Assembly: GCA_963281255.1 (NCBI GenBank)
Contig: OY725489.1
Coordinates: 7,378,523-7,442,522 of the forward strand
Direction: 5' to 3'
Length of the DNA stretch: 64,000 nucleotides
Source of the DNA: Aphrocallistes beatrix
Taxonomy: Eukaryota; Porifera; Hexactinellida; Sceptrulophora; Aphrocallistidae
In this document: piece after piece, positions 9,298 through 56,068 of the stretch
Layout: each line of letters opens with the position of its first letter
Position numbering within the stretch: position 1 is the first letter of the stretch
Program-made: the position numbers and the translations under genes
Notes under the pieces: model-generated
The model's input: only the letters and a program-made list of their open reading frames with translations
What the model was told of the DNA's origin: nothing
The model's database searches: none

Positions 9298-9414
9298 CAC
9301 TATTAGCAGGATTGTGGAAGACTCCTTGCTTCAAGAGAACTTCAACGTCGTCCAAGTTAGGATTCTGTTTAGATGCATTTGAAATTTTTTCCTCGTTGGG
9401 GTAGTAGGGTAGAT
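9298..9414 (-). CDS. channel paralogue A, exon 2 (start of ankyrin domain)
   Basis: A 117-nt exon, phase 1 in and phase 1 out, exactly as in copy B (55060-55176). It is bounded by ...TTTTTGTTAG acceptor and GTAAGC donor. It encodes an ankyrin-like helix (VEVLLKQGVF). No later exon of this copy is visible between 1 and 9297. The matching intron in copy B is about 9 kb, so the rest may lie off the left edge, or the copy may be truncated. Confidence 0.75.
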
Positions 9415-9496
9415 CTAACAAAAAATATTTTATTGAAGGATTGGTGTGCGAATTCAGTGATACAAATTTGTTCCAAAGTAAAATTAGCATAAAGTA

Positions 9497-9745
9497 TCTT
9501 ATATATTAAAACGCTAGGATTTTTGTTTGTTAGCTTGTCCGAATCGATTGAAGAATTGGCAAGTCGTAGAGATACAAAAATTGACATGTGGGTGTCAAAT
9601 GATGAATCAACGATTAAGTTCGAAGGTCTAAGCGAAATTTTCACACCTCTGCAAAAAAATAATTTTAACACATTTTCAATGCAATACTATGTATGGACAT
9701 ATTTTAACACCATTTTATGAATTTCATTTCAATAATAATACTCTG
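9497..9745 (+). repeat. HelA 5' fragment in intron 1 of paralogue A
   Basis: Starts A|TCTTATATATTAAAACGC and continues through the shared CGAATTGATTGAAGAA segment, then breaks off. The same intron of paralogue B carries a different insertion (55225-55655). Confidence 0.75.
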
Positions 9746-9869
9746 AATAGTAGACACGTTTAAATTATCATTTTATCGCATTCTGACTTAATAAATAATG
9801 AAAGTTTCAAGCACATAAGGGGGGGCGTTACAAAGAGAAAGGATGGGAAACACTGTTGTAGGAACTCAC

Positions 9870-10092
9870 CTGATATATCCAAGTTAAGTATATCGTTTAG
9901 GTAAATTTTAGCATCATTGCTCGAACACATCTCTTTTGAAAGGCCTAGGAAATCTCCTACTGTTCTCCTGTTCTTAGCGAGCATTGAGGAATTCTTGTTA
10001 ACTTCTTCTTGTGTCATTTCTTGTGCCAGAGGTGCAACTGATATTGATTCTCCTGAATTCGATATTGTCTCATCTGCGATAGCTTCCGCCAT
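9870..10092 (-). CDS. channel paralogue A, exon 1 (N-terminus)
   Basis: ATG at 10092 opens a 74-codon frame (MAEAIADETISNS...) ending in a GTGAGT donor, phase 1. It is alignable over its length with exon 1 of the complete channel gene (55855-56068) and has a four-residue insertion. Differences concentrate at wobble and a few polar residues, and the frame and splice sites are kept, so it may still be functional. No signal peptide or membrane segment. The first 45 residues are serine- and acid-rich. Confidence 0.75.
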
Positions 10093-14442: not shown

Positions 14443-14503
14443 GCCTTACATGACTTTTGTTCATTCATAAAACTATCCAATTAGAATCTCCCAGTTAAGT
14501 ATA

Positions 14504-16928: not shown

Positions 16929-17397
16929 CAGTGGAACCTCCGTAATCCGACACCTCTGTAATCCGACATTTCTCTAAACCGACATTATTTCTGCTCACGG
17001 ATCGTTTTTCTATAGAAAACAACCTCTATAATCCGACACCTCGCAATTCCGGAGTCCGACAATTTAATGATTTTCCAGTAATGCAAATTCGACCTGTATA
17101 ATCCGACAATTTTTTCGTCTATCAAATAATGTCGGACTATGGAGGTTATTTTACCTCCATAATCCGACAAATTATTCTTCTTTCAAATGATGTCGGATTA
17201 TGAAGGTTATTTTACCTCCATAATCCGACAAATTATTCGTCTATCAAAAAATGTCGGATTATGGAGGGGTTATTTTACCTCTTTGATCAGACAAATTATT
17301 CGTCTGTCAAATATTGTCGGATTGTGGAGGTTATTTACCTCCATAATCCGACATTTTGCTGATTTTCCACAAATGTCGGATTATGGAGGTTCCACTG
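16929..17397. mobile_element. pogo-like MITE (TCCGACA family)
   Basis: Terminal repeats CAGTGGAACCTCCGTAATCC, TA on both sides, and many internal inverted copies of ATAATCCGACA. A second copy lies in intron 1 of the channel gene (55225-55655). Non-coding. Confidence 0.85.
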
Positions 17398-20759: not shown

Positions 20760-20765
20760 TTTATT
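20760..20765 (-). terminator. poly(A) signal of the channel gene
   Basis: AATAAA on the minus strand, about 50 nt after the stop codon at 20816. Confidence 0.7.
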
Positions 20766-20815: not shown

Positions 20816-21093
20816 TCAGGATTGTTCCTGCTCCTTCTCCAAGTTACTGAGAGTTTTGAGATTTTTACATACATCAGTAAGTCTATTTTCAAGTACTTCG
20901 AACTGAGTGGACAATTGATCCATCTTGTTATGATTGAAATCTGACATAGTTTGAATACGATGCTGCAGTGCTATTTGTGTTTTTTGATGTTCAGCTAAGC
21001 TCAGCTTTTGTTCTTTAGAATATGTATCAACTAGCCCGTGTAAATCTTTACCTTTTCCATAGCTGTAGGCGGCATCGATTTGAAATATTCCAT
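20816..21093 (-). CDS. channel exon 10 (C-terminal coiled coil, stop)
   Basis: Acceptor ...CTTTATAG at 21094-21095; the 92 codons end with TGA/TAA-type stop at 20816. It encodes a heptad-rich stretch (KMDQLSTQFEVLENRL, VCKNLKTLSNLEKEQEQ) suited to tetramer assembly. Phase 1 matches exon 9. Confidence 0.85.
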
Positions 21094-24000
21094 CTATAAA
21101 GTATTTAACGTCATAAAGCAATACATTCATACATGACTCAATGAGGAAAATGTAATATCTAATTTTTATTTCGATTATATGGACCAAGTAAAATAAATCT
21201 TCAAGTCTGTTGGTATATGTGAAATAGCATGGATTTCATTTTATAAATATAATGGACCAGGTGATTTGGGATTTCCAGCCCAAAATGACTATACTATAAG
21301 AAATACACTACAAAATGATCTTGAGTTTCATGATTATATAATTCAAATTTTGTCAAAGAGGAAGTATTTTATAAACAAAGTTATATGATAAAATAAATAG
21401 ATTTAAGGATTGAGATTTTATGCTAAAAATAGAAGAATGGTACAATAATTGTGTCAAAGCATCATTTTAATCTGAACCAAAATTCAACATACCAATGCAT
21501 AAATGTTTTTAGGGCTGGAAAAAGAATCAAATTGGTAACAGGATACAAAAATATATTAAGTTAATGATGTTGAGGAGAGAACACAATATATATTTCCAAA
21601 AATGATCAGAAAATGATCGGGTTAAAAAAGATCGCTGATCCCCATCTGATCGTCAAATAGGATCGCGATGTTGATCGAACGATTATTGATCGCGCAATCT
21701 TAATGCCCTAAATGTGATTAGTTTATTAAATTTAGTAGTTCCTGATGTATTATAATATTCATTTCTCGCGTGCCAAGTCACTGGAGCAGCACTATCGGTC
21801 TATAGACCGACATTTTTCAGAAAGGTTTTCTGGGCTTTATACTAACCTTAATTCAATTGCACTTATCTATGAAGTGATTGAATTATATACCGAATTTTGA
21901 CATCTTGGGGATACTCTTTCAAAGAACAGATTCAATTTCCTATTACTATGGCACTGGCATCCCACGTTAAGACTTTTATTAATGGTAGAAGTATATTCCA
22001 TTAAATCAAGTGGAGTACTCGGTATTGGATATTTTAAATATAGTGGAACCTGTATATTATATACAGGTTCCACTATATTTAAAATATATTTAAAAAAGGC
22101 CGTTATATACAGTATATAACGGCCACCCTCGGGACTGGACAAAATTGGCCGTTATACACAGGTGACCGTTGTATACAGGTGATTGTCTTAACCCCCAAAA
22201 GGTATCAACGTAGTGCGATAAATATCAAGTTTTTAGAAAGCCATTTCTTGAAGTAATTACAAGAAACTTGTTTATCGTTCGTAACAGGTCCTGAAATAAA
22301 CACATAAAAAGGTGAAAAGGTGATGGCCGTTATAGACAGATAGTGGCCGTTATACACAGGTGATGGCCATTATATGTACACAGTTTTAGGGTCAGTAAGG
22401 GACTACAAATGGGTGGCCACTGGCCGCGTTGAGCAGGTGACCGCTATACACAGGTTCAATATTATGGAGTTTCGGACGGGACTGTTCATTGGTGACCGTT
22501 ATAGACAGGTGACCAATATTATATAGAGTGGCCGTTATAGCAGGTTCGACTGTATTTAAATATTTAGAACATTAGATAAAAATATATTTGAATGAAAAAT
22601 AAACTTACCAACTAAGAAATATTTTTTTAAATCTTTCTTTTCAACAATAATATCCTTGCCACCTGATACTCGGTTCGCTACAAATGAAAGAAGAGACTTC
22701 TTTTGTATTTGATAAACAAAATCCATTCTATAGCGAGCAACAATTTTCTCTGCATTCTTTTTAACAGAACTATAAGTATCAGTCAACTGTGCAATGAAAA
22801 TGTTCAAATAGACCACAATTACGATAAATACAAAAACCATATAAGTGATAACAGCGAGAACATTTAGAGTTGTGACATAATTAAAACCCAAAACCTCTTC
22901 ACCCAATAATATGCGTGTTCCAAAAAGGAGAAGAAATCCAAAGTTATCAATAATTCCACTTAATTCCTGGCTTGTGTTAAAATAGTTTATAAAAAATCTG
23001 GTTTGATTAGTTCCATTAAAAACTACCGGTAGAGGAACGCGCAGACTCAAAAGGAATGTCATTACAAAGAGATATAGAGTAATTACGAACAGTAGCATGA
23101 ATTTTGAAACGTCCCTCTTGCACACTAAAATAATTATCCTGATATAAGTTCCAAAAACTGAGTAGATGTTCAGAAGTTTTATAATAGAAAATGAGCTTAG
23201 TAGAAATGCGAACGGAGCGACATACCATTGATATTCAAGATATGGTAAGCGTGGAGCAACGAGTGTTAAAAAGCGGAAAAAGATAACGACAAAGACGAAT
23301 AGAATACCGCCTGTGTCCAACCAATTGAACACATCAGAAAAATAATTAACGAGAGCCCAACCGATATAATTTCTCCTTTTGAACAGAGTATAATAAAATT
23401 TAGGGAAAAAAATACAGAATACCTTTATAAATTTCAATAATTTTTGTCTGAAAGGAGTACCAACCTCTTTGGTAAGCTTTGTTTTGGGTTTTCCTTCACC
23501 AGGATGATCTTTATATTGTTCCAATAAATACTTCCCTTCTAACGACTGTGTTGGGTACACAAAAGGCTTCGAATCATTCTCTTCTTGTTCGCTTACTTTT
23601 AAAGGCGCTATTTCATGTACTACATCAATCTCACTACCTAAATCTGTTTCTTGTCTTGAGAGAGGAACCAAATCAATTAATTCTCCATTTGTTTCAGAAT
23701 AGTCAGAAGGAGATTGAGTTTCTCTCGATTCTTCTTCCAATGATTCGCTTTGTTTTTCATAATGCTCCTTACCAGATGTAAAGAAAGACTTTCCAAACCA
23801 ACTAGCAAGCCAATTGATTATCTTTTGAACTAAAAGGGAATATCGTTACTAGTAAAACTCGATTAATGTTTATATATCTATATCTCTGTAACGAAATGAT
23901 TGAGGAAACTGCCACGCACAGGAAGCTGTTTGTAGTATGTGGGAGTCTTTTGGCTATGGCTCTACTAAGTGCTGACCTCAGACGAAAATGTCGACTCATC

Positions 24001-33000: not shown

Positions 33001-36000
33001 TATAGGACCTTGTCGTATTAGATGAACAATTATCCAGAATTGTCGTATTAGATGAACAATTATGCATAATTGTTGAGAAATGAACACATACGCATAATTG
33101 TTGACAATTATGCATAATTGTTGATTTCGCAAATTTTCCTAACATATATATTGTAAACAAAGGTCAAAGAATAATTTATCATATCGATCTGAAAATATAA
33201 TATTCGAAATCTACACCCCTGAAAACCCCATGTCAACCGTTGAAAGCAAGTTTCTAGCATATTTTTGAGATTTGCTTACTTTATGTATCTATTGTAAACA
33301 AAGGTCAACGATTAATTTTTCATTTGGATCCGAAAATATGATATTCGAAATCTACACCCCTGAAAACCCTATGTCAACCGTTGAAAGCAAGTTTCTAGCA
33401 TATTTTTGAGATTTGTTTACTTTATGTATCTAATGTAAACAAAAGTAAACAAATAATTTATCATATTGATCTGAAAATATTATATTCGAAATCTACACCC
33501 CTAAAAACCCCTTGTCAACCGTTGGAAGCTAGTTTCTAGCATAATTTTCAAAATTCGTCAAATCGTGTGAAAATATGTATATAAAGGTGTGAAAATTACA
33601 AATAACCTTTTTAACTGCCATACACTATAATATATAATTGAGACATTCATATAAGTTATTGCTTTGATTAATTACAATTACAGCATACGATATTGTCGTA
33701 TAATGTTTTCTATTGTGAGAGTGAAGCCGTACATAGTATTGTATATAGAAAAGGTGTGAAAATTTGTTTTCCATTTTTTTTGCAGAGGTGTGAAAATTTC
33801 GCTTAGATTTTCGAACTTAATCGTAGATTCATCATTTGACACCTACATGCCAATTTTCGTATCTCTACGACTTGCCAATTCTTCAATCAATTCGGACAAA
33901 CAAACAAAAAAAAAAATCCTAGCATTTTAATATATAAGATTAACGTATGTAATTGATTATTGTTAACGGATATAATTTCGCCTTATTAGTGACTAAATAA
34001 ACGGATACTAATGTGTAAGGAACGGAAGTTGAGGCTTTTTGAGTGGAGTATGTTTGAAAGTATGGTTGAGGGCTTTTGATTGAGAAATAAGTAAGTGCGA
34101 AAGGGGTATCGTGATGAAAATTCCAGGGGAAAAAGTTCCGCTACCCGTTGTCCGGTAACTAATGTTCAGAGGACGAAATGTCCGCGATGAAATGCCCGGG
34201 GCGACGAAAGTTCCGGGCGACGAAGGTTCTGGCGACGAAGTTCCGCGACGAAAGTTCCAGGGACGAAAGTTCCAGCGACGAAAGTTCCGCCATCCTTGGC
34301 AATTGTATATTTGGATGTAGTACATACATTTGCATTATATATAGCTAGTATACTTACCTAATAAAAAATTCCTACGGTCTTGAGCTTCTAAAAGTAATTG
34401 AAATTCTCCCATCTCTGATATCACTATCCATATCCAAAACAGAAGTATATATAATTCAGCAAATAACCTCAATACATTAAGAAAATCAATACGGAAATTG
34501 AAGAAATAGAGAGTTGATACAGAGATGTGTTCAGTAGCTGCTAGATTCAGCGCATAACCTAAAAACAACCAGATTAATGAGTAGATTGGTTACAATCTTT
34601 TGTTTCCGACTAGAATGCATGCATAGCATTACGTATAGTAGCCAAATTCTAAAATGAGTGCCTCCCTATTTTTTAGTGCGCAGACTATGCTACGTAAAGT
34701 GGTCACACATAAAATGAGTCCTCCCTATATTCTATATTTTTAATCTATACGGGATTTTTAGGAACATTATAGATGTGGGAAAAATGAACTTAGGAGAAAA
34801 GGAGTTAAAAGTTTATCAGCAGACGAAGCACTATACGATTTTCGATGCGACACCAAATGACAAATGAGACAGCTTTTAGAGTTCAAACAAGCCGTAGCAC
34901 GGAATCCATGAATGCGCCACTATAATATTTTGAGCACCTAAGTGCATAAGAAAATTTAAACACCTTTACAGTGGCAAATATTTTCGCTGACGTACCAATT
35001 TTTTACAATCTTTATCCATAGCTTACTCAATATAATACCTCACAGTAAATGACCAAGGATGCACAGGCATGGCACCTCCTTTTGAAAACTGGTAGGGCGG
35101 AATATCAAATTGTCGTACCCTACGCGACTACTTATTGATTTTCAGATGCCCAGAAACGCCGTACCTCATTTTTTCAACATTACCTTCCTCCCCATTTGAA
35201 CTGTACGCGATGACATTAAAAAAATGATTATTGGCAGGAAGTTTTTGTGACATTCAAAATAATTCTGAATTCTTTATATTCGCCTTTTTCTATAATCGAC
35301 ATATTTTCTGACGTGTGGCATTCTGAGAAATGAGCAGGGATGAAGTACGGATCGTGCCACACCCTAGGCCAAGGATTTCAGAACTGGAAAAAAAAAGTTG
35401 TACGGATATTCTTTTGCCAAATGTTTACTTGCACTTTATTTTTTCCCCATTTAGCTTATTCACTAGTTTTTTTAATACTTTCTGCCTATTTTTTGACCGG
35501 GATTTAGTTGGGAGTGAGGTGAATAATGATGAGTCGACATTATATACTATATATACTTGTATATATATACACAAACATTAATCAAGTTTTAATAGTCAGG
35601 ATGATTAGTTTGAGCGAGAATTTAATATTTATTTTTACATAATACCGTTAATTTCAAATTGATGAGTTAAATTGGAAGTTATATTTCAGAGAAGAACGTA
35701 AACAAATGAACGCTCTTCTTTAATGCTCTCCTAGTAATTAACGGATCTAAATATAAATTACTACAACTATCAACTTACCCAATGCGAGTAGATATAGAGT
35801 GTGTAGAAAGGTTTTGAAATATAAATAACGATCCCCTCTCTTTTCCATCTCTTTATCAACATACAAACGCATCACACCATGATATGCTAAATCTTCATCT
35901 CCACTTTCTGCTATCAATTGGAATCCGGTAGGATCTTGCCTTTCACTATATTTTTCATTCTCCCTAACAATTTCAGACTTTACTGGTGAGTCCAATAGTT

Positions 36001-39000
36001 TGGTACTGACGTAGACTAAAACATAGTAATTAAATGAGCAACCAATATTCTCAAAAGGTAGCTGGAGTAATTCAAATTTCCAGGGACTTCTTGGAAACAT
36101 GGGTGGCGCCAGGAATTACCCGACAGGGGGACTAAATTAGAGTGTCTTTTCTAAATTTCTTCCAATTCTTTCTCCGACAGATTATAAAATTTTCCCGACG
36201 GGGGTGCTGTAGCCCTACACCCACTGGCACCACCCTTGCTTGGAAAGCGATTATGTTCAGTGAATATTCAAGGATTTAGATAGATAAAATGTGATGATTA
36301 TATAATTCTACAACCGCGTTAAAGCACTAGCGCAGCGCTGGTTACATCCATACTAAGCACTTCATAAATCATATACAATTCACTTATTTCCCATTTAGAT
36401 ATAGATCTTATTGCCGAATAATGACACGGGTTTTCGATCTTTGGACTCTTCATGACGTTATCATAATGACGTTAACATAAAATTATAGAGAAACCATACT
36501 GAATCTTATATATTAAAACGCTAGGATCTTTTTGGTGTTTGTTCGAATTGATTGAAGAATTGGCAAGTCGTAGAGATACGAAAATTGGCAAGTAGGTGTC
36601 AAATGAGTAATTTACGATTAAATCCGAAGTTCAAAGCGAATTTTCACACCTCTGTTAAAAATGTAGAAAACAATTTTTCACACCTTTACTATACAATATA
36701 AAGGCTTCACTCTCACGATATAGATCATTGTACAATACTACAATAGACTACTTCAAAACAATTACTCATATAGGTATCTTAATTAAGGTTTTTAATGTGT
36801 ATAGCACTGTTTCATCGTAACTTGATAACCATCGTAACTTGATAACAACCATGGATGCACAACTTCTATCGTAACTTGATTACCTTTGACAACCAACTTC
36901 CGATTTGAATAAATTCGATGTTATTGGAAATAAGAGGATCAGACGTTTATGAAAATGTATTAAAATTTTATTTGTATGCCTCTTAGGCTAGTTAAACCGA
37001 GCTCAACCTCAACAATATTGTTAGTAGTTCATCTAAAAATTCCAATTCAAGACTTTGTACCCATATTTTTGAATAACAGGCGTTTATGCAGTTTAAATTT
37101 CATAGGAAAATTCCAAATTTCTTGGGAGCTATAGGTTGGTAGAGTTGGCGGTCAGTTAGTTCGGACGTATACCACTCTTACTAGTTACCAGAGTGAGCAT
37201 GCTGTAATATTTCAGTAATATTTCATTCAATTGAAGATGTAGCCTAGTTGGATGTATTATTAATTGATAGAGAATAGACATACGTTTTATGAGACGTGAT
37301 TTGAATCGTATAAATTCACTAGTTTCATTAGGATAACCCATCAAAGTTTTTACTAAAATCCGAAATTTTTAATACTGACTTCTGTCGATTTTTCAACATT
37401 TTTGTCCCGCTTTTGGAGTTGATACTCCATCAATGTATTCTTTATTACCCTATATCTTATTTTAAATAATGAAAACTTAGGGCAGCTAATCGATTTTTTA
37501 AAGTATTTCATTTTTGATTCATCCATCTCATAAAACGTATGTCTATTCTCTATCAATTAATAATACAGCCAACTAGGCTACATCTTCAATCGATTGAAAT
37601 ATTACTGAAATATTACAGCATGCTCACTCTGGTAACTAGCAAGGGGGGTATACGTCCGAACTAGCTGACCGCCAACTCTACCAACCTATAACTCCCAAGA
37701 AATTTGGAATTTTCCTTGAAATTTAAACTGCATAAACGCCTGTTATTCAGAAATATGGGTACAAAGTTTTGAATTGGAATTTTTAGATGAACTACTAACA
37801 ATATTGTTGAGGCTGTGCTCGGTTTAACTAGCCTAAAAGGCATAAATTTAAAATTTCAATACATTTTCATAAACGTCTGATCCTCTTCGTTCCAACAAGG
37901 CTGGATTAGGTTAACCGGTTAATCGGCTAACCCCCGTCAATCTCGGTTAACGGTTAAGGAAATCCTCGATCGGTTAGCCGATCGGCTTTATTTTATAAAT
38001 ATTTACACTAATTTCATTGTTTTTCTTCGGAGATTCATGAATATTATTTCCAAAAATTTGATAATACAGTATAATTCCTATTTTATAATTATATAATATA
38101 TTTCGAGACGACTGAAAATTATAAAATTTTTAATATCAGGTTAAAGATTAGTCCAAAAATCCATATTTTTACTAATTAATATTGCCATCGGTTAACCGGT
38201 TAACCGCCCTGGAGGAAACCAAAATAACTGATCCCTAAAATCGGTTAACCAACCCCAGCCCTGTTTCCAATAACATCGAATTTATTCAAATCGGAAGTTG
38301 GTTGTCAAATTAACACTTCAAGGGTGCTCGGTCGAATCCCGATTCAACTTAACACTCCTATTCAAGTAACTCAGGGTTATCAAGTTACGATAGTAGTTGT
38401 ACATCCATGCAAATTATCAAGCATGATGGTTATCAAGTTACGATGAAACAGCACTTAAAAAGGTCATGTGTCTATTTTACAACTTTATACACATATGCTC
38501 ACACCTTTTGACGAATTTTGAAAAATGTGCCAGAGACTAGTTTCCAAAGGTTAATATATGGTTTTTAGAAGTGTATATTTTGAATATCAAATTTTTGAAT
38601 CAATATTATACGTACATATTGGTCCACTTTAATTTACAATAGTTACATAGAGTAAACAAATTCTAAAAGCAGGCTGGATGAAAGCTTCCAAAGGTTGAAA
38701 TGGGGTTTTGGGGTGTAGATTTCGAATATCATACTTTCGCATGTACAAGTATATGATAAATTGTTTGTTTTCTTTTTTTCAATAGTTACCATAAAGTAAA
38801 CAAATTCCAAAATAAGGTGAAATCATTCACTCAACTGTTAACATGGGGTTTTGTAGGTGTAGATTTCTAATTCCTTTTATCATGGACCTAATTTTCTTCA
38901 GTAATTAATTAGAAAGCGATCCAACCGTTTCTTTGATATCCCTAGGCGCCCTCAGGGCAAATATTCGGATTCGGAGTGTCTGTAAGCCGCACAGCGCGAG

Positions 39001-42000
39001 CAAGTGAAGCTCGCTTGTTTTTGTCTTAAATTCAAATTTATATTTTATCTTTTTAAGATAAGAATATTTCCATCATTAAAAAATATTATTTTCGATTATT
39101 TGATACATCATTATGATGTCAGCATAATATTTAGAGATCAATCAATTCAGACAAACAAACAAACAAAAATCCTAGCGTTTAACATATAAGATATTTCAGT
39201 ATGAAGATTATAAACTTCACATTTAAAAACTCTAAAATTAATATTTCCAGATGTATTATAATATTCGTATTTCGTGTCCTACGAGTCATTTAATGGATTT
39301 GTACTATGAGTGTGTCAGCTCCATTTTTCTTATTTATTGAATAAATTACCTTTATTAGACGTCGGTGATGATCTTATAGAGCAGTCCAACATTGAGTAGA
39401 TTGATTTGTGCATTTGGTTATTTATAATTTTATACCAAGGTAATCGGTAAAAATCGTAAGATCCCTTTAGTTTGCGAATTAGAACAGCCAAAGATGCGTC
39501 CTGATTCTGTTCCACTGCAATGTCTGTTGGAGACTGTGTCATATTATTCTTTAAGTCAGTTACTGCACCCAAAGCTAACAGAACCTGTGTATATTGATTT
39601 TGATTAATACTCTAATTTATTTAATTTCAGTTTGCGAACTAGACAAATCCACAATACCTGTTTATTTCTTTCAAACTTGGTAAATGGTTAAATTGCAATG
39701 CAGACATAAATTACTCCGTTTTTAAGAGTTTTACATCATTACATTTATTACGAGTAGTGGCGGTTCTACGGTGGGACCAGATGGGACTGTCACTGGAAAA
39801 TTGGTCCGGGGGACCAATTTTTCTCGAAAAATTAGTCTTCCGGAAATTTTTCCTGAAAAAAATGGTACCCGGACCAATATTCTCTGAAAATAATGGTCTC
39901 CCGGACCAATTTTCTCTGAAAAAAATGACCCATCCGGACCAATATTCCATGGAAAAATGGTCCATTGCAGGACCAAAGTTTCGTGACAGGGCCATGGCCC
40001 CATCATTTTATGGGTTGACCCTGATGCCAGGTGGGGTCTGCTATTCGCTTGTCATAAAATATTACCCAGCTTTTATTCATTTTTTTCAAATTGGTCTCCA
40101 CTGAATTTCACCTAGTCCTATTGCACTTTTCACTCTAGCCCCGAAAGAGGAAAAAATTGTTTGATTATCTAAACAAGCTCAAAACTGTAATAACCTTCAA
40201 ATGGGAACAATCTTACTAAATTTTAATCTAAAACTAGAATCCAATGATATGACTAGTAGACGATGAAGAAGTTATTCGGAGGGTAGAACTTACTTCTACA
40301 GTTGAAGCATGTCCTCCTTGGATTGCTGACATTAGCGGTGTAGCTAGCTTGTGATCTCTCCAGTCAACTACAGCGCCATGCTTCACTAGAATACTGGCTG
40401 CTATTGAGTTTCCAGAGTATGCAGCATCGAAAAGAGGAGTGCGACTAAGATGGTCATTACAATTGACATCTATATCTTTTGATAGTAGGAGATAGAGGAT
40501 CTAATAAAGTAGAAAAGTAGAATATATAAACATACATACGGTATGGGAATGTAACTTTGTGTCCGAAATTCGGGTGCTTTGTTCTATTGATATTAATCTA
40601 AAGAATGCTATTAAGCATTTCAAAACTGAAATTAGAACTTATATTCTTTTTGTTGGAAAGCCATGAACAAATTTGCATTTTACAATCCACTATGAATAGT
40701 CCAAATATTGAACTATTTACTATATAAAGAAATATGGACTCAACTATAAGAAAAACAATGCCAAAGCAAAAATATTAGCAAACCTCAATCTTTTCCAGAC
40801 AAATAGTTATAATATTGCTAATCTATTAATGCTGCCAATGACATTAAATTAGTGAAAATATACTCATTAACTTCAAGTTCCTATTCTCCACATTCGAATT
40901 AATGACTATACATGCGCCCTTCGCTTGCTTGCGCTGCGCGCGGCTGGCAGACACTATGTTCCGTCGAAGTCGGATCTTGGGCGCTTAGGCTCATATTGAT
41001 TAATTATATTATAAGGTGGATAAATCTCTAAATACGCCTGTCTTAGTGTTATAATCGAAATCAATCGAAAAAACATTCCCACTTTTTTTTGATGAGTAAT
41101 GATGACGTCATACCAGAATGATGAGTAATCATTAAGTACGCTTCGAAAGTACGCTTAAGCACGCTTCGCTTGCTTGTGCTGCGCGGATGGCGGACACTTT
41201 GTGTCCGCCAAAGGCTCCCTTCGGTCGCTTGGCGGCACATTGATTAATTATAAGGAAGATAATACAGTCGACTCCGCTTAATAGGGCCACTGTTTAATCA
41301 GGCCACTTTTGGCAGGACCGGAATAGCTCTCACACATAGAAGCTAATACCAAATATTTTCGGTTAATAAGGTCCCCCGCTTAATCGGGGCAAAATGTCCT
41401 CTGACCGATGTGGCCCTATTAAGCGGAGTCGACTGTATCTCCAAATATGTCTGTCTTACTGTTAAATCGATACCACTCGAAAAATCACTAAATTTATCAA
41501 TTTTCGAAATTTTGATAAATAATGATGACGTCATAACAGAGTGATGTGTCATCATTTTTGGAAAATAGCTGTAGTATATGTGAAGTATATTAATGTACAC
41601 ATTTAATTAAAATTTCAGCCTTCTATCACTTAAAACGGCAGAGTTATGGTAAAAACAGATAATTCTCAGTAAAAGGTGACAATGACGTCATAATTCCATG
41701 ATGAGTAGACATTTTGGTTTGAGCTCAGATCTTAGTGGAGCCATAGCCAAAAGATTCCCAATTACAAAAATCAGCTTTCTGCGCCTCGAAATTTCTCCAA
41801 TCAATTCGTTACAGAGATAGATATCTTATATATTAAAACGCTAGGATTTTTTTGTTTGTGTTTGTTTGAATTGATTGAAAAATTGGCAAGTCGTAGAGGT
41901 ATGAAAAGTGGCATGTAGGTGTCAAATGATATGACTACGATTAAGTTCTAAGATCTAAGCGAAATTTTCACACACCTGCAAAAAAAATGAAAAACAATTT

Positions 42001-45000: not shown

Positions 45001-48000
45001 ACTGACGCTCTGCTGTATATATTATGATCATTAGTGACACAAAATGACAAATATTTAATATTTTCCACATGATAAAGAATATTTCAGTTCAAGTTTCAAA
45101 AAAGAGTAATTTGGATGTCTAGTTTACAAATTTGAAATCAAATATAGAGAATTTCTCACACTTTGCTTACATAATCCTTGATGACAATTTGATATTATTT
45201 ATATGGCGATTTTCGTGATGTTCAAATATTTTCATCTCGATGGTGTCTATATTTAAATATATATCGAGTTTTCATAGTAGAGATTAACAAATAACTGATT
45301 CCGAGTCCCATATTTTCAAAATCTAGACTATAGATAACGTATTTTACATTAATAAGTGCAGGAAAGCTACAAGTAAGATCACTTTTAATTTGACGATTTG
45401 ATCGCAATTATTATCGGAATTGAACTAATGAAGTATCTATTTAACCTCTTCTGATGCCGATTGTGCTGCAATATGTAGAGGAGTCTGTCCTTTCCTGTTG
45501 ACTGAATTAAAGTCTGCCTTGTTATCTAGTAAGATCCCAGCACAAGATGCATAACCCTCTAAGCAGGCTACGTGCAATGGTGTATTGCCAGGTCCATTTT
45601 TGGCTTCAATTAGAGATGTATCTCTTTCTATGATCATTGATATCATGTGAGGACTGCCGCCTGTACATAAATAGTATAAAACATATAAAATAAATTATTT
45701 GTTCGTTATCCATCTTTTTATGAAAAAGGGCGGAGAGGCGGCGTTTATTTTTAATAATCTAGTTAATTACAATTAAGGTCACTTATCATAAACCCTCTTA
45801 AACGGAGGCTATTAAATGTTGTATCAGTCTGAGTTGACTAATTCATGAATTATCAATGAATTACTCAAAATTTGAAACTAAAATAATGAAAATAATATTT
45901 GATATTTCGCTTAGGGACTGAGCAATGTTAGAGGTATATAACATGTGCAACCTTTTAACCACTTTTGGGCATAGAATCTGCACTAATGTTTGAGATTTTG
46001 AATAATTCATTAATTGAATAATTCATAATTCTTCATCATATTTCAATGAATTAGTCAACTTAGGTATCAGTTCAAAAATGACAACTAACTTACTCAGAGC
46101 ACAGCAGTGAAGGAATGTGTCAAAACGTGTTAAATTTGGACGTGTGGATTCAAAAATACGCCCTCCAAGAGAATAGTCCCAAAATAGTGCTTTCAAATGA
46201 ATACCTACACAATTAATCATGAATTCTCCAAGAACGACTTGATTCTTGAAACACAATTGTCCAAATCCTAGATGCAGACAGAAAAAGTAATGGTGAAAAA
46301 ACTCCAATTGTATCGATCTAGCCATAACAAAGAAGATTAAATCCCATCTCTCGTTGTTCTGACACTGAAGAATCAGATAAGTGTTTATGTTTTTACCTAA
46401 AGAAAAGGAATTTAGTTATACAGCGATCATGGGCATCAACGCGCTTATGGGTGAATTTTATCTATGATGTAATTATAAATATTCAAAGAGATTCCAAAAT
46501 TTAATATATGGACCTCTAAATACGTCAAAAACGCTGAAGACATAGGTCCCAAGTTTAGTGTGCCGAATCAATATTTAGTAAACAAGCGCGCTTCGCTTGC
46601 TTGCACTGCGCAGCTTTCGAACACTAAGTGTCCGCAGAGTCACCCTGCGGGCACCTGGAATTACTCAATCTAACTTATGCCAATTTTCACATCTCTATTA
46701 CTTCCCAATTCTTCGATCAATTCGGATAAACACAAAATAAAAATCCTAACATTTTAATATATAAGATAGTTTGAGCTGATTATAAATAAACATATCAGCT
46801 TAAGACTATCAAATTTATGTATTTGAGAGAAATTAATATTTCAGTTCGAATGCGAGTCAGTGGATTCTGGCCTTCAAATGCGGGTCTGACCAGTTTGAGG
46901 CGGGTTACTTGGACCTAACATAGACTACTTTAAGTAAGGACTGTAGGCTTCAAACTCGGGTCCTGGAACTTGGGTCCATTGTGATTATTTATATCTCGTA
47001 CCGTTCAAGTTAGACATAGAATATGCACCATTGTTAATAAGAAGTCATATTTTGGAGTCCTGTTATGCAATATTTGTTCCGGTCGCAAATATTGTTGCAC
47101 CCGGAACAAATTTTATATATTAAAACGCTAGGATTGTTTTCTTGTGTGTTTGTCCGAATTGATTGAAGAAGTAAGACGTAGGGATATTAAAATTGGCATG
47201 TAGGTTTCAAATGATGTAATTACAATTAAGTTCTAAGATCTAAACAAAATTTTCACATCTCTCCAAAGAAATGGAAAACAAATTTTCACACCTTTTCTAT
47301 ACATTACATATGAGTTCACTCTCACACTAGAAATAATTGTACGACACTACAATAGATTGTCATCGTTTAAATACATCAAAGCCACAGCTTATGTTAGATA
47401 TCTTAATTTGATTATAGTGTATAGCAATAAAAAGGGTTATGTACATATTTTCACACCTTTATATACATATTTTCACACCATTTGACAAATTTTGAAAAAT
47501 ATGCTAGAGACTAGCTTCCAACGCTTGGCATGGAGGTTTTAGGGGTGTAGAGTTCGAATATTATATTTTCGGATCTATATGAGAAATCTTTCATTAACTT
47601 TTGTTTACAATATTTATATAAAGTAGATAAATTCCCAAAATAGGCTAGATTGAGTAATTCCAGGCACCCGTAGGGAAACTCTGCGGACACTTTGTGTCCG
47701 CAAGCCGCACAGCGCAAGCAAGCGAAGCGCGCTTGTTTGTTATAAAATTAGTCGATTTACAATTTTATAAATTATATGACTGTGAATATATTATGACTGT
47801 GAATTTTTATATGACATTATTACAATAACTATCATAAATTATGACTGTGAATTTTTATATGATATTATTACAATAACGATCACATCTTTGTTCCAGGCAA
47901 GGCTGGATTCGGTTAACCGGTTAACCGGCTAACCGCCGTCAATCACGGTTAACGGTTAAGAAAATCTTGGATCGGTTAGCCGATCTGCTTTATTTTCTAA

Positions 48001-54000: not shown

Positions 54001-56068
54001 TTTAAACATCAGAAATACGCCTTTTACAACTTTTGGCCCCAACCCAGATCCCATTATAAATTAGCACGAGGGGGAAGCTACTTTGCGCGACCACTAGACC
54101 ATCCCCAAATTGCATGAAAATTTTATGGTGAATACTTGGTAATCAAAATAAACTATTTGAAGAGTGTGCATCTAAAGATTCAAACTTTCGAATTTTTTGG
54201 AGCACCCTAATATATATATATATATGTAACGAATTGATTAAAGAACCTGCTGAGCACAGAAAGCTGATTTTTGGTATGTGGAAACCTTTTGAATATGGCT
54301 CCACTAAGTGCTAACCTCAGACGAAAATGTCGACTCATCATGGAATTATGACGTCATTGTTACCACTCCTATAATTTGAAATTTCAGTTTTTGACTATAA
54401 CTCAGCAATTTTAGGTTATAGAAGGTTAAAATTTTAATGGAATGTGTATATTAATATTCTTCACATATGATACAACTATTGACCAATAATGATGACTCAT
54501 CATTCCGTTATTATGTCATCATTATGCATTAAAATTTGAAAAATTGACTAATTTTGTGATTTTTCGTGTGATATCGATTATAACGGTAAAACAGAGGTAT
54601 TTTAGGATGTTATCTACCTTAAAATCAATCAATGTGAGCCCAGGCCTCCTTTGGGCGCCTCTATCGAACACAAAGTGTCCGCCACCCGCGCTGCGCATGT
54701 AAGTGAAGTGTGCTTGTCTTAGATTAATGGCTAGAGAATCAAAAAGCAATCAAACTTTTCTTTGATACCTTGGCGCCCGCAAGTCGACTCTGCGGATACG
54801 CAGTGCCCGCAAGCCGCACTGCGCAAGCAAGCGAAGCGCGCTTGTTTAATAATAAAATTCCACACATCAACTTCCTATCTCCTTAACCACTTTCGGAACA
54901 ACAGCGATTAATCGATTAACTGACTCCAATCTTGATCCCAGTAAGAGAAAATATTAGCATTACATCATAAATAAATGTTGTACATAATGGATTACAAGCA
55001 TACAAATAGCAGTAAATGTGTAAAATTTCCGAATATCTTATTTTTACTTAGTAACTTACTATGAGTAGATCGATTTTGGAAGACTCCTTGCTTCAAAAGA
55101 ACTTCAACGTTGGCCAAGCTAGGATTCTCTTCACATGCCTCCCAAAGTTTTCTCTCGTTGCATTCATAAGGTAAATCTAACAAAACATTTCACTGAAGGA
55201 TTGTTGTGCAAATATTCAGTAATACAGTGGAACCTCCGTAATCCGACACCTCTGTAATCCGACATTTCTCTAAACCGACATTATTTCTGTTCACGGATCG
55301 TTTTTCTATAGAAAACAACCTCTATAATCCGACACCTCGCTATTCCGGAGTCCGACAATTTAATGATTTTCCAGTAATGCAAATTCGACCTGTATAATCC
55401 GACAATTTTTTCGGCTATCAAATAATGTCGGATTATGGAGGTTATTTTACCTCCATAATCCGACAAATTATTCTTCTTTCAAATGATGTCGGATTATGGG
55501 GGGTTATTTTATCTCTTTGATCAGACAAATTATTCGTCTGTCAAATATTGTCGGATTGTGGAAGTTATTTTACCTCCATAATCCGACATTTTGCTGATTT
55601 TCCACAAATGTCGGATTATGGAGGGTATTCGATAATCCGACAATTTGCTAATCCGACATTTTTTTGCTTTTACTCTTAAAAGATACATTTTATATTTGCC
55701 CAATCAATGTTGAGTATTTTCAGTATTGAATACAAATACAATTTTGAGAATGAAAAATTATTGGAAATTGTTAACCAATCAATTATATGACTTTTCTACT
55801 ATTTACTATTTATTATGTTTAATACTTGCATTTACTATTATTTGGGAAACTCACTTGCAATACTGAAGTTTAGTATATTGTTTAGGTAACTTTTAGCACC
55901 ATCTGTTGAACACATCTTTTTTGTAAGGCCTAGGAAATCTCCTACTGTTCTCCTGTTCTTAGCGGGCATTGGGCAATTCTTATTAACTTCAATTTGTTGT
56001 GCCAGAGGAGCAACTGATATTGATTCTTCTGAATTTGATATCGTCTCATCTGCGATAGCTTCCGCCAT
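20816..56068 (-). CDS. ankyrin-repeat TRP-like cation channel, ten exons over 35 kb
   Basis: Joined from exons 56068-55855, 55176-55060, 46162-46094 (or starting 46204), 45660-45446, 40500-40294, 39584-39350, 36015-35779, 34558-34358, 23829-22609 and 21093-20816. Phases agree at every junction (one ambiguity, exon 3 start), giving about 997 or 1011 residues. Domains: Ser/acid-rich N-terminus (1-75), ankyrin repeats (about 75-330, e.g. GNTPLHVACLEG, GQTPLHIAAQ), S1 (about 413-435), S2 (460-485), an unusually long acidic cytosolic linker (500-620), S3-S6 (about 665-845), a pore-helix-like LLLFGTRILLGEE, S6 ending FIAQLTDTYSSV, and a C-terminal coiled coil. Ankyrins followed by six helices and a short re-entrant loop fit the TRPA/TRPV-like channels of the plasma membrane. 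Subfamily and stimulus cannot be told. All introns are loaded with transposons. Confidence 0.85.
21590..21705. repeat. GATC-dense repeat in intron 9
   Basis: About ten GATC sites in 110 bp, partly arranged as inverted repeats (CGATCAATAATCGTTCGATC-like). It may be the end of a short transposon (AGGGCATTAAGATTGCGCG at the right edge). Non-coding. Confidence 0.4.
22041..22552. mobile_element. pogo-like MITE (TATAACGGCC family), second copy
   Basis: The right end GCAGGTTCGACTG precedes TA; the left end AGTGGAACCTG is followed directly by its own inverse, giving a tiny perfect hairpin. The interior matches 12438-12815 inverted. It ends only 56 bp from exon 9. Confidence 0.75.
22609..23829 (-). 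CDS. channel exon 9 (linker, S3-S6, pore)
   Basis: A 1221-nt exon between acceptor TTCCCTTTTAG and donor GTAAGTTT, phase 1/1. It starts VQKIINWLASWFG, then about 110 Glu/Ser-rich residues, then RQKLLKFIKVF, S3 with FNWLDTGG, S4-S5 (IIKLLNIYSVFGTYIRIIIL), an extracellular loop with NGT and NQT glycosylation sequons, the pore helix, and S6 (VFVFIVIVVYLNIFIAQLTD). Putting all of S3-S6 on one long exon while the rest of the gene is finely split is notable. Confidence 0.9.
23845..24106 (+). repeat. HelB 5' part, interrupted by HelA
   Basis: TTACTAGTAAAACTCGATTAATG and HelB body to TTTTAATAAAAT, where a HelA copy starts with CAAGC at 24108. The remaining HelB 3' part is not seen beyond it. Confidence 0.6.
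24108..25157 (-). mobile_element. HelA, full-length reference copy
   Basis: Both ends are clear: the tail GCGTGCTTG begins at 24108 and 5' TCTTATATATTAAAATGC ends at 25157 (1050 bp). It contains four tandem units of about 160-175 bp, each with a TTGTTTACTTTATGTATC-like start and a CCCATGTCAACCGTTGGAAG core. No ORF, so it must be mobilised by a partner elsewhere. Confidence 0.8.
25163..26085. other. palindrome fragment and unidentified stretch before mariner
   Basis: 25163-25450 is one arm of the 4205-5236 palindrome. From 25450 to 26085 there are short open frames on the plus strand (e.g. from 25911, MGVKEVRYIYPYIK...) without a recognised domain. They could be the 5' part of the integrase element found beyond the mariner. 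Confidence 0.4.
26287..27460 (+). pseudogene. mariner/maT-like transposase, disrupted
   Basis: Helix-turn-helix region (SGKSQKEILNNL; RTIKRYKDTGSVQDRPRTGR), then catalytic residues in ILFSDEKNF, LFQQDSAPAHA and SPDLNPLDYSIWE. The last two aspartates are 37 residues apart, the DD37D (maT) signature. It is broken by the hAT MITE at 26362-26525, by in-frame stops near 26646, 26728 and 27117, but catalytic residues survive, so inactivation is fairly recent. It is flanked by its own TIRs. Confidence 0.9.
26362..26525. mobile_element. 164-bp hAT MITE inside the mariner transposase
   Basis: Ends CAGGGGCG and CGCCCCTG with an exact 8-bp target duplication TTTACAGG at 26354-26361 and 26526-26533. Excision would restore the transposase frame (LIYR joined to TIKRY). 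A decayed relative lies at about 27855-27950. Confidence 0.92.
27562..28210. mobile_element. foldback-like element with minisatellite arms
   Basis: The left arm (about 27562-27860) holds eight or so units of about 35-40 bp around GGGACGGGACGGG with CCTAATTTCC. The right arm (about 28035-28205) holds the same units inverted (CCCGTCCCGTCCCAGAAATT). The centre carries a decayed copy of the 26362 hAT MITE. Terminal arms made of inverted tandem repeats define foldback elements. It adjoins the mariner's TA. Confidence 0.65.
28240..30261 (+). pseudogene. KRBA2/Ginger-like integrase element, decayed
   Basis: Fragments in changing frames along the plus strand: a Cys-pair plus TKKSIVTKPI stretch, integrase core with VDLIDMRTTPDGDYKWILYY, LTMR/CDN for the second acidic residue, and GYPQSQGSVESANKRIGG with the catalytic Glu. 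Next come a NKANLMAQRGQKRQADKLL segment, a Cys-rich module (CRGNCATRHCPCK...CNSGCHP at about 29644-29715) in another frame, and a 119+ residue C-terminal frame (to stop at 30261) containing TCPLDNFIALICPH. This order is known from integrase genes of KRBA2/SCAND3-like transposons. Several frameshifts and stops make it inactive. The N-terminal part may be split off by the mariner. Confidence 0.75.
30262..31714. other. no recognisable feature
   Basis: AT-rich sequence in intron 8 of the channel gene without long open frames, tandem arrays or matches to the repeat families of this window. It may be the decayed flank of the integrase element. Confidence 0.5.
31715..31964 (+). repeat. HelA 3' end
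   Basis: One and a half internal units and the GC-rich tail with the perfect GCGGACAC hairpin, ending GCGCGTTTG at 31964. Confidence 0.65.
32320..33939 (-). mobile_element. HelA carrying a MULE insertion
   Basis: Tail at 32320 (GCGCGCTTG on the minus strand), 5' TCTTATATATTAAAATGC ending at 33939. Three internal units remain (33180-33580). It is interrupted at 32443-33143. Confidence 0.8.
32443..33143. mobile_element. MULE-type element with transposase fragment
   Basis: Ends GTTAGGACAAATTTGCGAAA and its inverse (one gap) continue into arms rich in ACAATTATGCATAATTGT. Flanks are ATATATAT on both sides. On the minus strand (32698 to about 32560) a frame reads FSLILWNVFDEHTHCPRTNN followed by KLEGWHNKLK, matching the C-terminal RTNN-EGWH motif of MULE transposases. 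Only this motif region remains, so it is non-autonomous. Confidence 0.8.
34358..34558 (-). CDS. channel exon 8 (S1 end and S2)
   Basis: Acceptor GGTTGTTTTTAG, donor GTAAGTAT, 201 nt, phase 1/1. It encodes YALNLAATEHISVSTLYFF and S2 (LNVLRLFAELYILLFWIWIV), then the start of the cytosolic linker (EAQDRRNFLLG). Confidence 0.85.
34560..35778. other. intron 7, degenerate repeats
   Basis: Two partly repeated AAAATGAGTGCCTCCCTA-like segments (about 34650-34740), a fragment of the 4205 palindrome (35021-35060) and a HelB 5' stub in reverse at about 35578-35600. No gene seen. Confidence 0.5.
35779..36015 (-). CDS. channel exon 7 (pre-S1 and S1)
   Basis: Acceptor ACTATGTTTTAG, donor GTAAGTTG, 237 nt, phase 1/1. 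A charged cytosolic stretch (SEIVRENEKYSERQDPTGFQ, DKEMEKRGDRYLYFK) precedes S1 (TFLHTLYLLALG). Confidence 0.85.
36099..36237. mobile_element. short MITE (GGGTGGYGCCAG ends)
   Basis: GGGTGGCGCCAGGAATT at left and the inverse of AAGGGTGGTGCCAGTGG at right enclose about 140 bp with CCCGACRGGGG boxes near each end. Target duplication uncertain. Confidence 0.5.
36807..38451. mobile_element. large palindromic element (GTTTCATCGTAACTTG ends)
   Basis: The ends CTGTTTCATCGTAACTTGAT and inverse extend into arms of about 500-600 bp (e.g. GATGAACTACTAACAATATTG in both). A hAT MITE sits in the right arm. About 1.27 kb without it. No conserved ORF, so probably mobilised in trans. Confidence 0.75.
37896..38263. 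mobile_element. hAT-like MITE (GGTTAACCGG family)
   Basis: Ends CAAGGCTGGATTAGGTTAAC and inverse of CAGGGCTGGGGTTGGTTAAC. The uninterrupted left arm of the host palindrome shows the target (ATTTCCAATAAC). Flanks GTTCCAA/TTTCCAA are a near-perfect 7-bp direct repeat. Another copy lies at 47898-48266. Confidence 0.8.
39350..39584 (-). CDS. channel exon 6 (last ankyrin repeat)
   Basis: Acceptor ATACACAG, donor GTAATTTA, 235 nt, phase 0/1. It opens VLLALGAVTDLKNNMTQSP and DIAVEQNQDASLAVLIRKL, typical helix-helix ankyrin text, then leaves the repeat fold. Confidence 0.85.
39765..40015. repeat. minisatellite (GGACCAATWTTCTCTGAAAA)
   Basis: About six units of about 36 bp around CCGGACCAATATTCTCTG with GAAAAATGGTC in intron 5. 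The outer edges GTGGCGGTTCTACGGTGGG and CCATGGCCCC are GC-rich. One diverged unit also occurs inside the MULE at about 32935. The frames on either strand are by-products of the repeat. Confidence 0.7.
40294..40500 (-). CDS. channel exon 5 (two ankyrin repeats)
   Basis: Acceptor TACTTTATTAG, donor GTAAGTTC, 207 nt, phase 0/0. It encodes LLLSKDIDVNCNDHLSRTPL, FDAAYSGNSIAASILVKHGA and LATPLMSAIQGGHASTVE, two clear ankyrin units. This exon was too short and closed by splice sites to appear as a long open frame. Confidence 0.88.
40915..41155 (-). repeat. HelB fragment
   Basis: A GC-rich tail (CGCTTGCTTGCGCTGCGCG) and the first 150 bp of HelB in reverse, followed directly by another HelB tail at about 41158. 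Confidence 0.6.
41158..41822 (-). repeat. HelB with pogo MITE insertion
   Basis: Reverse HelB tail and body interrupted by the 171-bp MITE at 41265-41435. It ends at the GAATTGATTGGAGAAA segment beside a HelA 5' end. Confidence 0.65.
41265..41435. mobile_element. 171-bp pogo-like MITE (GTCGACTCCGCTTAAT)
   Basis: Ends CAGTCGACTCCGCTTAATAG and perfect inverse, TA duplications at 41263-41264 and 41436-41437. A relative lies at about 63600-63777. Confidence 0.9.
41824..43010 (+). repeat. HelA with pogo-like MITE, 3' tail lost
   Basis: Begins TCTTATATATTAAAACGC; units at 42665-43000. The sequence stops at GATTGAGTAAC before the GC-rich tail and continues as HelB text. The MITE at 42188-42659 is inside. 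Confidence 0.65.
42188..42659. mobile_element. pogo-like MITE (CGCCGTTCGCGG)
   Basis: Ends CAGGTAACTCTCGCCGTTCG and inverse of CAGGTATCCCTCGCCGTTCG, TA at both flanks. Repeated CTATTCGCG boxes inside. Non-coding. Confidence 0.85.
43085..43726. repeat. degenerate repeats and half MITE
   Basis: 43085-43135 repeats the CGGTCKAYAGACCGA palindrome also found at 21795-21815. 43190-43450 holds two diverged HelA-like units. 43555-43718 is half of a MITE related to 867-1341. Confidence 0.5.
43727..44442 (-). repeat. HelA lacking terminal hairpin
   Basis: Starts at the CGCCCTGCGG part of the tail (last 50 bp lost) and reaches an intact 5' end at 44442. Two internal units. Confidence 0.65.
44615..45015. 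mobile_element. pogo-like MITE (CAGTTATCCGAAC)
   Basis: Right end inverse CAGCAGAGCGTCAGTTATCC, left end CATTGGAACATCAGTTATCC, TA flanks. 401 bp. Confidence 0.75.
45446..45660 (-). CDS. channel exon 4 (two ankyrin repeats)
   Basis: Acceptor TTTATGTACAG; donor reads GTTAAA, a weak site, but the frame closes with TAG two codons later and the join to exon 5 gives continuous ankyrin sequence. 215 nt, phase 1/0. It encodes GSPHMISMIIERDTSLIEA, GNTPLHVACLEGYASCAGIL and GQTPLHIAAQSASEE. Confidence 0.85.
46094..46162 (-). CDS. channel exon 3 (ankyrin, start ambiguous)
   Basis: Donor GTAAGT at 46088-46093. It encodes RIFESTRPNLTRF and DTFLHCCAL, which continues in exon 4 as SGSPHMISMI to make a standard ankyrin unit (T-x-L-H-x-x-A-x-x-G). 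Two acceptors keep the phase: CTATTCTCTTGGAG (start 46162, 69 nt) or AATTGTGTAG (start 46204, 111 nt). If the exon is skipped, exons 2 and 4 still join in frame, so it could be alternatively spliced. Confidence 0.65.
46583..46766 (-). mobile_element. minimal 184-bp HelA
   Basis: An intact GC tail and an intact 5' end with nearly all internal units deleted. It shows that about 90 bp at each end is all that persists in the shortest derivatives. Confidence 0.75.
47111..47735 (+). mobile_element. HelA copy
   Basis: The 5' end reads TTTTATATATTAAAACGC (first two bases changed) and the 3' end GAAGCGCGCTTG|T. One internal unit. Confidence 0.7.
47898..48266. mobile_element. hAT-like MITE (GGTTAACCGG family), second copy
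   Basis: Ends CAAGGCTGG and CCAGCCCTG with exact 7-bp repeats TTCCAGG directly at both sides (47891-47897, 48267-48273). About 90% like 37896-38263. Confidence 0.85.
48360..48690. repeat. TATTCGGTT tandem motifs and inverted repeat
   Basis: Several ATATTCGGTTNGG and GGAACCGAATA motifs in both orientations (48365-48500), then an inverted pair (AAATTATGCCATATCC at about 48505 and GGATATGGCATAATTTAA at about 48655). Probably a degraded transposon. Confidence 0.45.
49384..49763. repeat. inverted repeat arm 1 (with 51405-51690)
   Basis: About 280 bp nearly identical to the reverse complement of 51405-51690. Each arm joins a HelB 5' end (TTTACTATTAAAACTCG). The short frame shared by both arms (MYDFLSN...TFYMSNSNQLRII) is conserved only because the DNA is nearly identical; no family recognised. 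Confidence 0.75.
49764..50249 (+). mobile_element. HelB copy
   Basis: 5' TTTACTATTAAAACTCG to a shortened tail (GAAGCGCGCTTG|T) lacking the GCGGACAC hairpin. Confidence 0.65.
50305..50812 (-). mobile_element. HelB copy
   Basis: Complete tail at 50305; the body reaches the GAATTGATTGAAGAAACTGC segment and a TA tract. The 5' terminal 25 bp are not seen. Confidence 0.65.
50831..51383 (-). mobile_element. HelB, full-length
   Basis: 553 bp with the tail at 50831 and 5' TCCTTACTATTAAAACTCG ending at 51383. Same length and structure as 3041-3592. Confidence 0.75.
51405..51690. repeat. inverted repeat arm 2
   Basis: Partner of 49384-49763. It ends abruptly next to the candidate minus-strand exon at 51693. 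Confidence 0.75.
51693..51963 (-). CDS. candidate terminal exon, unknown protein
   Basis: A strong acceptor (CTTCCTTTTACTCCAG) opens 89 codons reading EQSPCILDIDEQLRGHHER, QYGLAPVPTFGFVCIPFNRI, ...SLSEFLHLKMESDLLLRRIM... to a stop at 51693. Composition is protein-like and the acceptor is excellent, but no family is recognised and no upstream exon was found. The stop lies at the edge of the inverted repeat, so the true end may be lost. Confidence 0.45.
51970..52068 (+). CDS. candidate penultimate exon, coiled-coil protein
   Basis: Open frame KGRILLNKETPSLKYEIEEK, EKYLVRNLQALK ending in a consensus donor (AAAG|GTAAGTAT), phase 1. The left edge (acceptor CTCTGGAG at 51968-51969) is tentative. 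It joins in phase to the next entry. The preceding exons are not found, possibly separated by the repeat insertion to the left. Confidence 0.45.
52336..52400 (+). CDS. candidate terminal exon, joins 51970-52068
   Basis: Acceptor GTATTTATTTCAG, then NTEGSSPTFGVYDVFSFILK and TAG. Phase 1 in, matching the donor at 52069 across a 267-bp intron. AATAAA follows at 52523-52528. The protein family is unknown. Confidence 0.5.
52523..52528 (+). terminator. possible poly(A) signal
   Basis: AATAAA 122 nt after the stop of the plus-strand exon pair. Confidence 0.4.
52668..52835. mobile_element. short hAT-like MITE (GTTGCCGTGGGAAT)
   Basis: CAGGGTTGCCGTGGGAATGG at left, inverse TTGCCGTGGGAATG at right, with many CCCAYAGGATT and GGGATTCCC boxes. 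Related ends appear at 16200-16300. Confidence 0.6.
53595..54210. mobile_element. palindromic MITE (TTAGGGTGCTCCAAAAA ends)
   Basis: TTAGGGTGCTCCAAAAATT and its inverse enclose arms of about 270 bp (e.g. TAGCACGAGGGGGAAGCTAC opposite GTAGCCTCCCCCTCGTGCTA). Superfamily not clear from the ends. Confidence 0.75.
54211..54716 (+). repeat. HelB copy
   Basis: Starts within the TA tract before TGTAACGAATTGATTAAAGA and ends with a diverged tail (GTGTGCTTG, 54716). The extreme 5' end was lost next to the MITE. Confidence 0.6.
54720..54846 (+). repeat. HelA 3' tail
   Basis: GGCGCCCGCAAGTCGACTC... to GCGAAGCGCGCTTG|T, only the last 120 bp or so. Confidence 0.6.
55060..55176 (-). CDS. channel exon 2
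   Basis: Acceptor GTTTTGTTAG, donor GTAAGTTAC, 117 nt, phase 1/1. It encodes RKLWEACEENPSLANVEVLL and KQGVFQNRSTH, the first ankyrin helix pair. Confidence 0.85.
55225..55655. mobile_element. pogo-like MITE (TCCGACA family) in intron 1
   Basis: The left end CAGTGGAACCTCCGTAATCC follows TA. The interior is nearly identical to 16929-17397 with one unit missing; the right end has decayed. Confidence 0.8.
55855..56068 (-). CDS. channel exon 1 (start codon)
   Basis: ATG at 56068; 214 nt to donor GTGAGTTT, phase 1. It encodes MAEAIADETISNSEESISVA and a central NRRTVGDFLGLTKKM motif shared with paralogue A. The start is supported by conservation of the ATG and loss of similarity in frame upstream. 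Confidence 0.85.

Follow-up and report, generated by a model that had tools for sequence, protein, structure and literature searches.

TRPA channels carry a long ankyrin array of 14 or more repeats, and TRPV channels carry about six repeats. TRPA1 combines ankyrins (17 in the title of 7ykr) with six helices, and TRPVL channels have about six repeats, as TRPV channels do. CrTRP1 of Chlamydomonas (6pw4) is an algal channel that sits on a very long branch of the tree. TRP channels of type I and type II are reported from sponge transcriptomes, with a glass sponge among the sampled species, in the available part of PMC3890488. Here, we have analysed a 64,000-nucleotide stretch of the glass sponge Aphrocallistes beatrix (contig OY725489.1; hereafter the window) and suggest that it very probably holds a functional gene for an ankyrin-repeat TRP-like cation channel, which, with two further intact tandem copies, would belong to a clade rich in introns.

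The gene runs on the minus strand from 56068 to 20816 and has ten exons and nine introns, all of them GT-AG as read from the sequence (Table 1). The joined exons comprise 3,228 bases including the stop, that is 1,075 codons and a stop codon with zero internal stops, and the phases entering exons 2-10 (1,1,1,0,0,1,1,1,1) are consistent throughout the chain. Only exon 9 is long (1,221 bases). An earlier note had rebuilt a ten-exon gene from scattered short frames and had stated that splice sites and phases agree at all nine junctions; its outer coordinates proved exact and its gene model was confirmed almost base for base. The weak donor of exon 4 is also present in the two paralogs described below, and reads GTGAGT in a copy on another contig (C14). 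Of the nine junctions, the one at the exon 3 acceptor is the least certain, since this exon begins with residues that differ among the three tandem copies. An alternative, phase-0 acceptor there (TTCTTCAG) would break the phase, and we discarded it. From these signals we infer that the ten exons are spliced together, most firmly exons 4-10.

Table 1. Coordinates, in the window, of the exons of the channel gene and of associated features.
Feature	Position	Strand	Remarks
Exon 1	55855..56068	-	start codon 56068-56066; recurs in paralogs A and B
Exon 2	55060..55176	-	degenerate repeat-like N-terminal region; least constrained exon in the W-A comparison (dN/dS 1.03)
Exon 3	46094..46396	-	degenerate sequence; towards its end the first canonical ankyrin repeat begins; acceptor position uncertain
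Exon 4	45446..45660	-	ankyrin repeats; weak donor GTTAAA
Exon 5	40294..40500	-	ankyrin repeats
Exon 6	39350..39584	-	final ankyrin repeats and linker; downstream intron has a sister-clade counterpart
Exon 7	35779..36015	-	pre-S1 region and first part of S1
Exon 8	34358..34558	-	remainder of S1, then S2
Exon 9	22609..23829	-	long S2-S3 linker, S3-S6, pore loop, post-S6 helix; Ion_trans
Exon 10	20816..21093	-	cytosolic C terminus; stop 20818-20816; preceding intron has a donor counterpart in the sister clade
AATAAA, possible polyadenylation signal	20760..20765	-	about 50 bases beyond the stop
Gene A, exons 1 (10092-9870) and 2 (9414-9298)	9298..10092	-	rest of gene A lies beyond the window

That the exon chain is not a product of chance came from the comparison with its neighbours. 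When exon 9 was searched against its own genome (100.5 Mb, 28 contigs), two close places were found on the same contig, 86% and 82% identical; matches in this genome amount to 79 places when pieces and more distant channels are included. Exon-by-exon comparison showed that all ten exons of the window gene (W) recur in the same order and on the same strand in both neighbouring copies, A and B, with B on the other side of W from A. The introns of the three genes are GT-AG throughout (27/27), their frames are open over 1,075 (W), 1,094 (A) and 1,112 (B) residues, and the proteins are 83-86% identical; in A and B, the ends of exons 2 and 3 were set by frame and GT/AG. In the three-copy comparison dN/dS is 0.30, 0.45 and 0.40 at dS 0.21-0.24, and substitutions favour the third codon position (91/71/164 at positions 1/2/3 for W-A and 107/85/162 for W-B). 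Since two full-length tandem paralogs repeat the ten exons, nine introns and open frames, and appear to be under purifying selection, these look like living genes rather than relics. One could still read the locus as a decayed or transposon-shuffled relic whose pieces we joined by chance, as intron 8 contains a transposase-like frame (27119-27457, plus strand; DDE_3 22.5 bits, below the cut-off of 28.6), the introns hold dispersed and tandem repeats, and a truly broken relative lies nearby. The intact frames, the uniform GT-AG introns and the dN/dS values argue against a relic to the point that we give it next to no credence, and for exons 4-10 we regard it as already refuted. The broken relative, at 12315-11499 on the minus strand, is a C18a-type (sister-clade) channel copy with stops that lies between the window gene and paralog A.

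Exons 4-10 are thus firm, and exons 1-2 with the start of exon 3 are less constrained. For this 5' part, the channel could be real and yet exons 1-2 or the start of exon 3 could belong to another transcript, or the first exons could be used alternatively: exon 2 stands out in the W-A comparison (Table 1), the first residues of exon 3 are unlike in the three copies, and intron 2 measures 8.7 kb in W, 14.9 kb in A and 5.2 kb in B. Nevertheless, A and B each carry exons 1 and 2 in the same order and in phase, weak matches to them are present in the C14 copy, and we consider separate 5' exons improbable. The C14 copy has clear counterparts of exons 3-9 and weak or partial ones of exons 1, 2 and 10, and a stretch containing stops lies inside its exon 9.

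Both domains that the earlier note expected in the joined protein were matched by Pfam profiles, Ank_2 at 1.8e-48 and Ion_trans at 28.0 bits against a cut-off of 25 (31.3 bits for exon 9 alone, same cut-off); a TIGR00870 match of 42 bits is far below its cut-off of 499 bits. The note had the ankyrin repeats running across five exons. The repeats are real, but by our own count there are about six canonical ones (residues about 206-395), which begin late in exon 3 and continue into exon 6, four exons in all, and in our own reading exons 2-3 otherwise hold what seems to be degenerate repeat-like sequence only. The membrane half has S1 divided between exons 7 and 8, S2 in exon 8, and S3-S6 with the pore in exon 9. 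S2-S6 are above a hydropathy cut of 1.5, S1 is below it and was placed by homology, and residues 164-182 in exon 3 are marginally above it (1.57 vs 1.5). The linker between S2 and S3 has about 180 residues, and the filter in the S5-pore-S6 unit lies around L-G-E-E.

Six membrane segments with a pore loop (Ion_trans), S1 being placed by homology, are as expected of a group I member of the TRP superfamily. For this group, the available part of PMC9242649 asks for at least seven of twelve fingerprint residues, and seven are found here (G803, F831, F879, F909, N919, I922 and A923, by our own placement from spacing). The count is not discriminating, because scores of 7-8 are also reached by some TPC and Nav domains in the table of that source, as far as it is available. 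Searched against solved structures as a single sequence, the pore region matched CrTRP1 first (8.2e-6), TRPV2 second and then PKD2L1. With a pore profile built from 15 family members there were 118 matches at E <= 0.01; the best 60 all belong to the TRP superfamily, CrTRP1 leading them. The E-values of profile A3 are 9.3e-12 for CrTRP1, 5.2e-9 for TRPM4, 4.9e-7 for TRPC4 and 6.7e-7 for TRPV4. By the listing in the available part of PMC9242649, the fingerprint letters G, N, F, I and A are common to CrTRP1 and this protein, and the fingerprint of CrTRP1 differs at other places; we take this as a likeness and not as a sign of close relationship.

Could the protein be a true TRPV or TRPA member? 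The number of canonical repeats is that of TRPV and TRPVL, TRPV2 is the second match of its pore region, TRPV4 is the best solved match by sequence for the pore region of a single-exon relative, and the fold matches of a modelled relative are led by TRPA1 and TRPV chains. Against this, the pore profile is nearest to CrTRP1, TRPM4 and TRPC4 and not to TRPV, TRPA1 has many more ankyrin repeats, and the TRPA1 fingerprint ends in L-I-G-R where F-I-A and V are found here. The tryptophan of the TRP helix is also absent, with V at the aligned position, and this absence together with the long S2-S3 linker sets the protein apart from TRPV/TRPVL; it does not exclude the superfamily, because TRPA1, TRPVL and CrTRP1 are also without this tryptophan. 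TRPVL shares the letters N-F-I-A with this protein in Table 1 of PMC9242649, and the S6 aromatic residue is F here and is listed as W for TRPVL in the available part of the same source. We consider true TRPV or TRPA membership unlikely, and suggest from these comparisons that the protein is a divergent TRP-superfamily channel. What the earlier note called a TRPA/TRPV-type channel thus stands as an architecture of ankyrins, pore domain and pore loop, and is not supported as a membership.

The model of a full-length single-exon relative (P0001; 32% identical to this protein in the pore region) has a pLDDT of 80.7 and a pTM of 0.70, and shows an ankyrin stack, six long membrane-type helices and a pore helix. 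Its top five Foldseek matches are TRPA1, TRPA1, NOMPC, TRPV5 and TRPV6, over 637-932 alignment columns; the relative is thus predicted to fold as an ankyrin-TRP protein, with TM-scores over the query of only 0.29-0.40. VIA-align of the full model listed ankyrin-type chains and said little on the channel half. Exon 9 modelled alone is of low confidence (pLDDT 57.6), and its structural matches are weak, with PKD2 chains first.

The channel family has many members in this genome and in Oopsacas minuta, which is a hexactinellid in the available part of the literature. A search with a single-exon family member gave 80 relatives, of which seven carry NCBI names, all from O. minuta, one has a transcript name and 72 are without a name. 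The O. minuta proteins have the same ankyrin and channel architecture and the S6 motif LN(V/I)FIAQL(S/T)D; three of them (P0017, P0024 and P0035), named 'Ankyrin repeat domain-containing 29-like' or hypothetical, are ankyrin/ion-transport proteins that share 51-53% identity with the single-exon relative L042 across the searched region. The seven O. minuta proteins in the tree fall among the single-exon genes, outside the ten-exon clade, and protein-collection searches of limited sensitivity found no ten-exon orthologue in Oopsacas. In an insensitive search, the pore region of the joined protein matched 0 of 3,595 candidates from a large protein collection at E <= 0.001, a null that says little because this genome itself contains relatives, beyond the protein's own clade, with identities of up to 48%. 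Exon 9 gave four matches among 1,724 candidates, all separate proteins of 316-410 residues: the window's own, two identical to the C2 copies and one resembling the C14 copy. This search covered proteins of roughly 220-710 residues, and an insensitive search found no matching protein of greater length. Such short separate proteins fit the expectation of the earlier note that gene finders relying on long frames would fragment the gene. Among the papers listed by a literature search, none named the ten-exon clade in its title or at the start of its abstract.

We also looked at the mitochondrial code of this genome. The cox1 frame contains 14 TGA, 42 ATA and 16 AGA codons, with several AGA at what we take to be conserved serine places; AGR as Ser, AUA as Ile and favoured, and TGA as Trp are as in Hexactinellida. 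The hexactinellid mitochondrial code is described in the available part of PMC2267718, where AGR as Ser is also given for some bilaterians. Together with the NCBI-named relatives, all from O. minuta, the code speaks for a hexactinellid host.

The introns of the window gene range from 433 to 10,528 bases with a mean of 3,558 (n=9), and the means for A and B are 4,828 and 2,699. In the available parts of the published reports, O. minuta has 1.59 introns per gene with an average of 341 bp (PMC10280926), and the intron averages of two compared scaffolds of O. minuta and A. vastus are 194 and 516 bp (PMC10282587). The mean of 3.6 kb is notable beside these averages of 194-516 bp, which are figures of other species. 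The transposase-like frame and the repeats in the introns would explain the intron length. In the window, another transposase-like frame lies upstream of the gene (59618-60301, minus strand; DDE_1 above its cut-off), 17098-17353 and 55394-55629 share one 61-bp tandem unit that has TAATCCGACA-type arms, and 140-141 bp units form tandem arrays at six places. Single open frames on the plus strand encode two NHL-repeat proteins (14471-15370 and 60647-61873), and 200 bases are masked (204-403). No Rfam family matched in the window at gathering cut-offs, and no tRNA was found in it.

Relatives of the gene have far fewer introns. In the sister clade (C18, C6, C7 and C12), the two C18 genes have the entire ankyrin half in one frame and the channel half in another, and long channel frames are present in the other genes read. 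Intron 6 has a counterpart in the same phase, seen at the donor in two genes and at the acceptor in four, and intron 9 has one in the same phase in six genes, at the donor side alone; in the sister-clade genes read, only these two sites are interrupted and none of the other seven introns was seen. The more distant L042 is a single exon from start to stop, and in many other relatives the frames are 700-955 codons long. At L037:3-3269, upstream of the C18a channel, lies an open frame of 1,089 codons with, by eye, two repeated halves. In the tree, the ten-exon clade and the sister clade group together with 100/100 support and the single-exon genes fall outside; the outgroup branches are very long. 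This tree left out C7c, which had joined the ten-exon clade on a long branch in an earlier tree, and one identical row, and the C14 copy was never in any tree because a motif filter dropped it. To explain this pattern, seven gained introns make the more economical account, and massive loss in two lineages would produce it as well; with the long outgroup branches and the omissions from the tree, we do not choose between gain and loss.

How such a channel may work is suggested by analogy with solved TRP channels. The ten exons, once spliced, would give a coding sequence of 3.2 kb and a subunit of 1,075 residues with a cytosolic ankyrin domain, S1-S4 including the long S2-S3 linker, S5-pore-S6, a helix after S6 and a C-terminal tail. 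Four such subunits would assemble around a cation pore that would open on signals read through the ankyrin and linker regions. Judged by its family, the likeliest function is that of a cation channel subunit gated through its cytosolic ankyrins. According to the available part of PMC10280926, hexactinellids conduct action potentials, yet O. minuta is devoid of sodium-channel genes and has no obvious voltage-gated potassium channels; a role of the present channels in glass-sponge electrical conduction would be a guess. It is a long shot, in our estimate, that seven introns were gained in a single clade of a glass-sponge channel family that is otherwise poor in introns, that mobile elements later inflated them to kilobases, and that the tandem channels of this clade are among the cation channels behind this conduction, which runs without known voltage-gated sodium channels.

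We would like to point out that this is an ordinary kind of gene, with an intron history that is mildly surprising. As it has two intact sister copies in tandem, and its relatives have far fewer introns, it is a new member of a known channel superfamily whose gene is unusually intron-rich. A 35-kb multi-exon TRP clade beside relatives with few or no introns shows annotators what is being fragmented, and the family makes a compact test of intron gain versus loss. For physiologists, the three intact copies are candidates to express.
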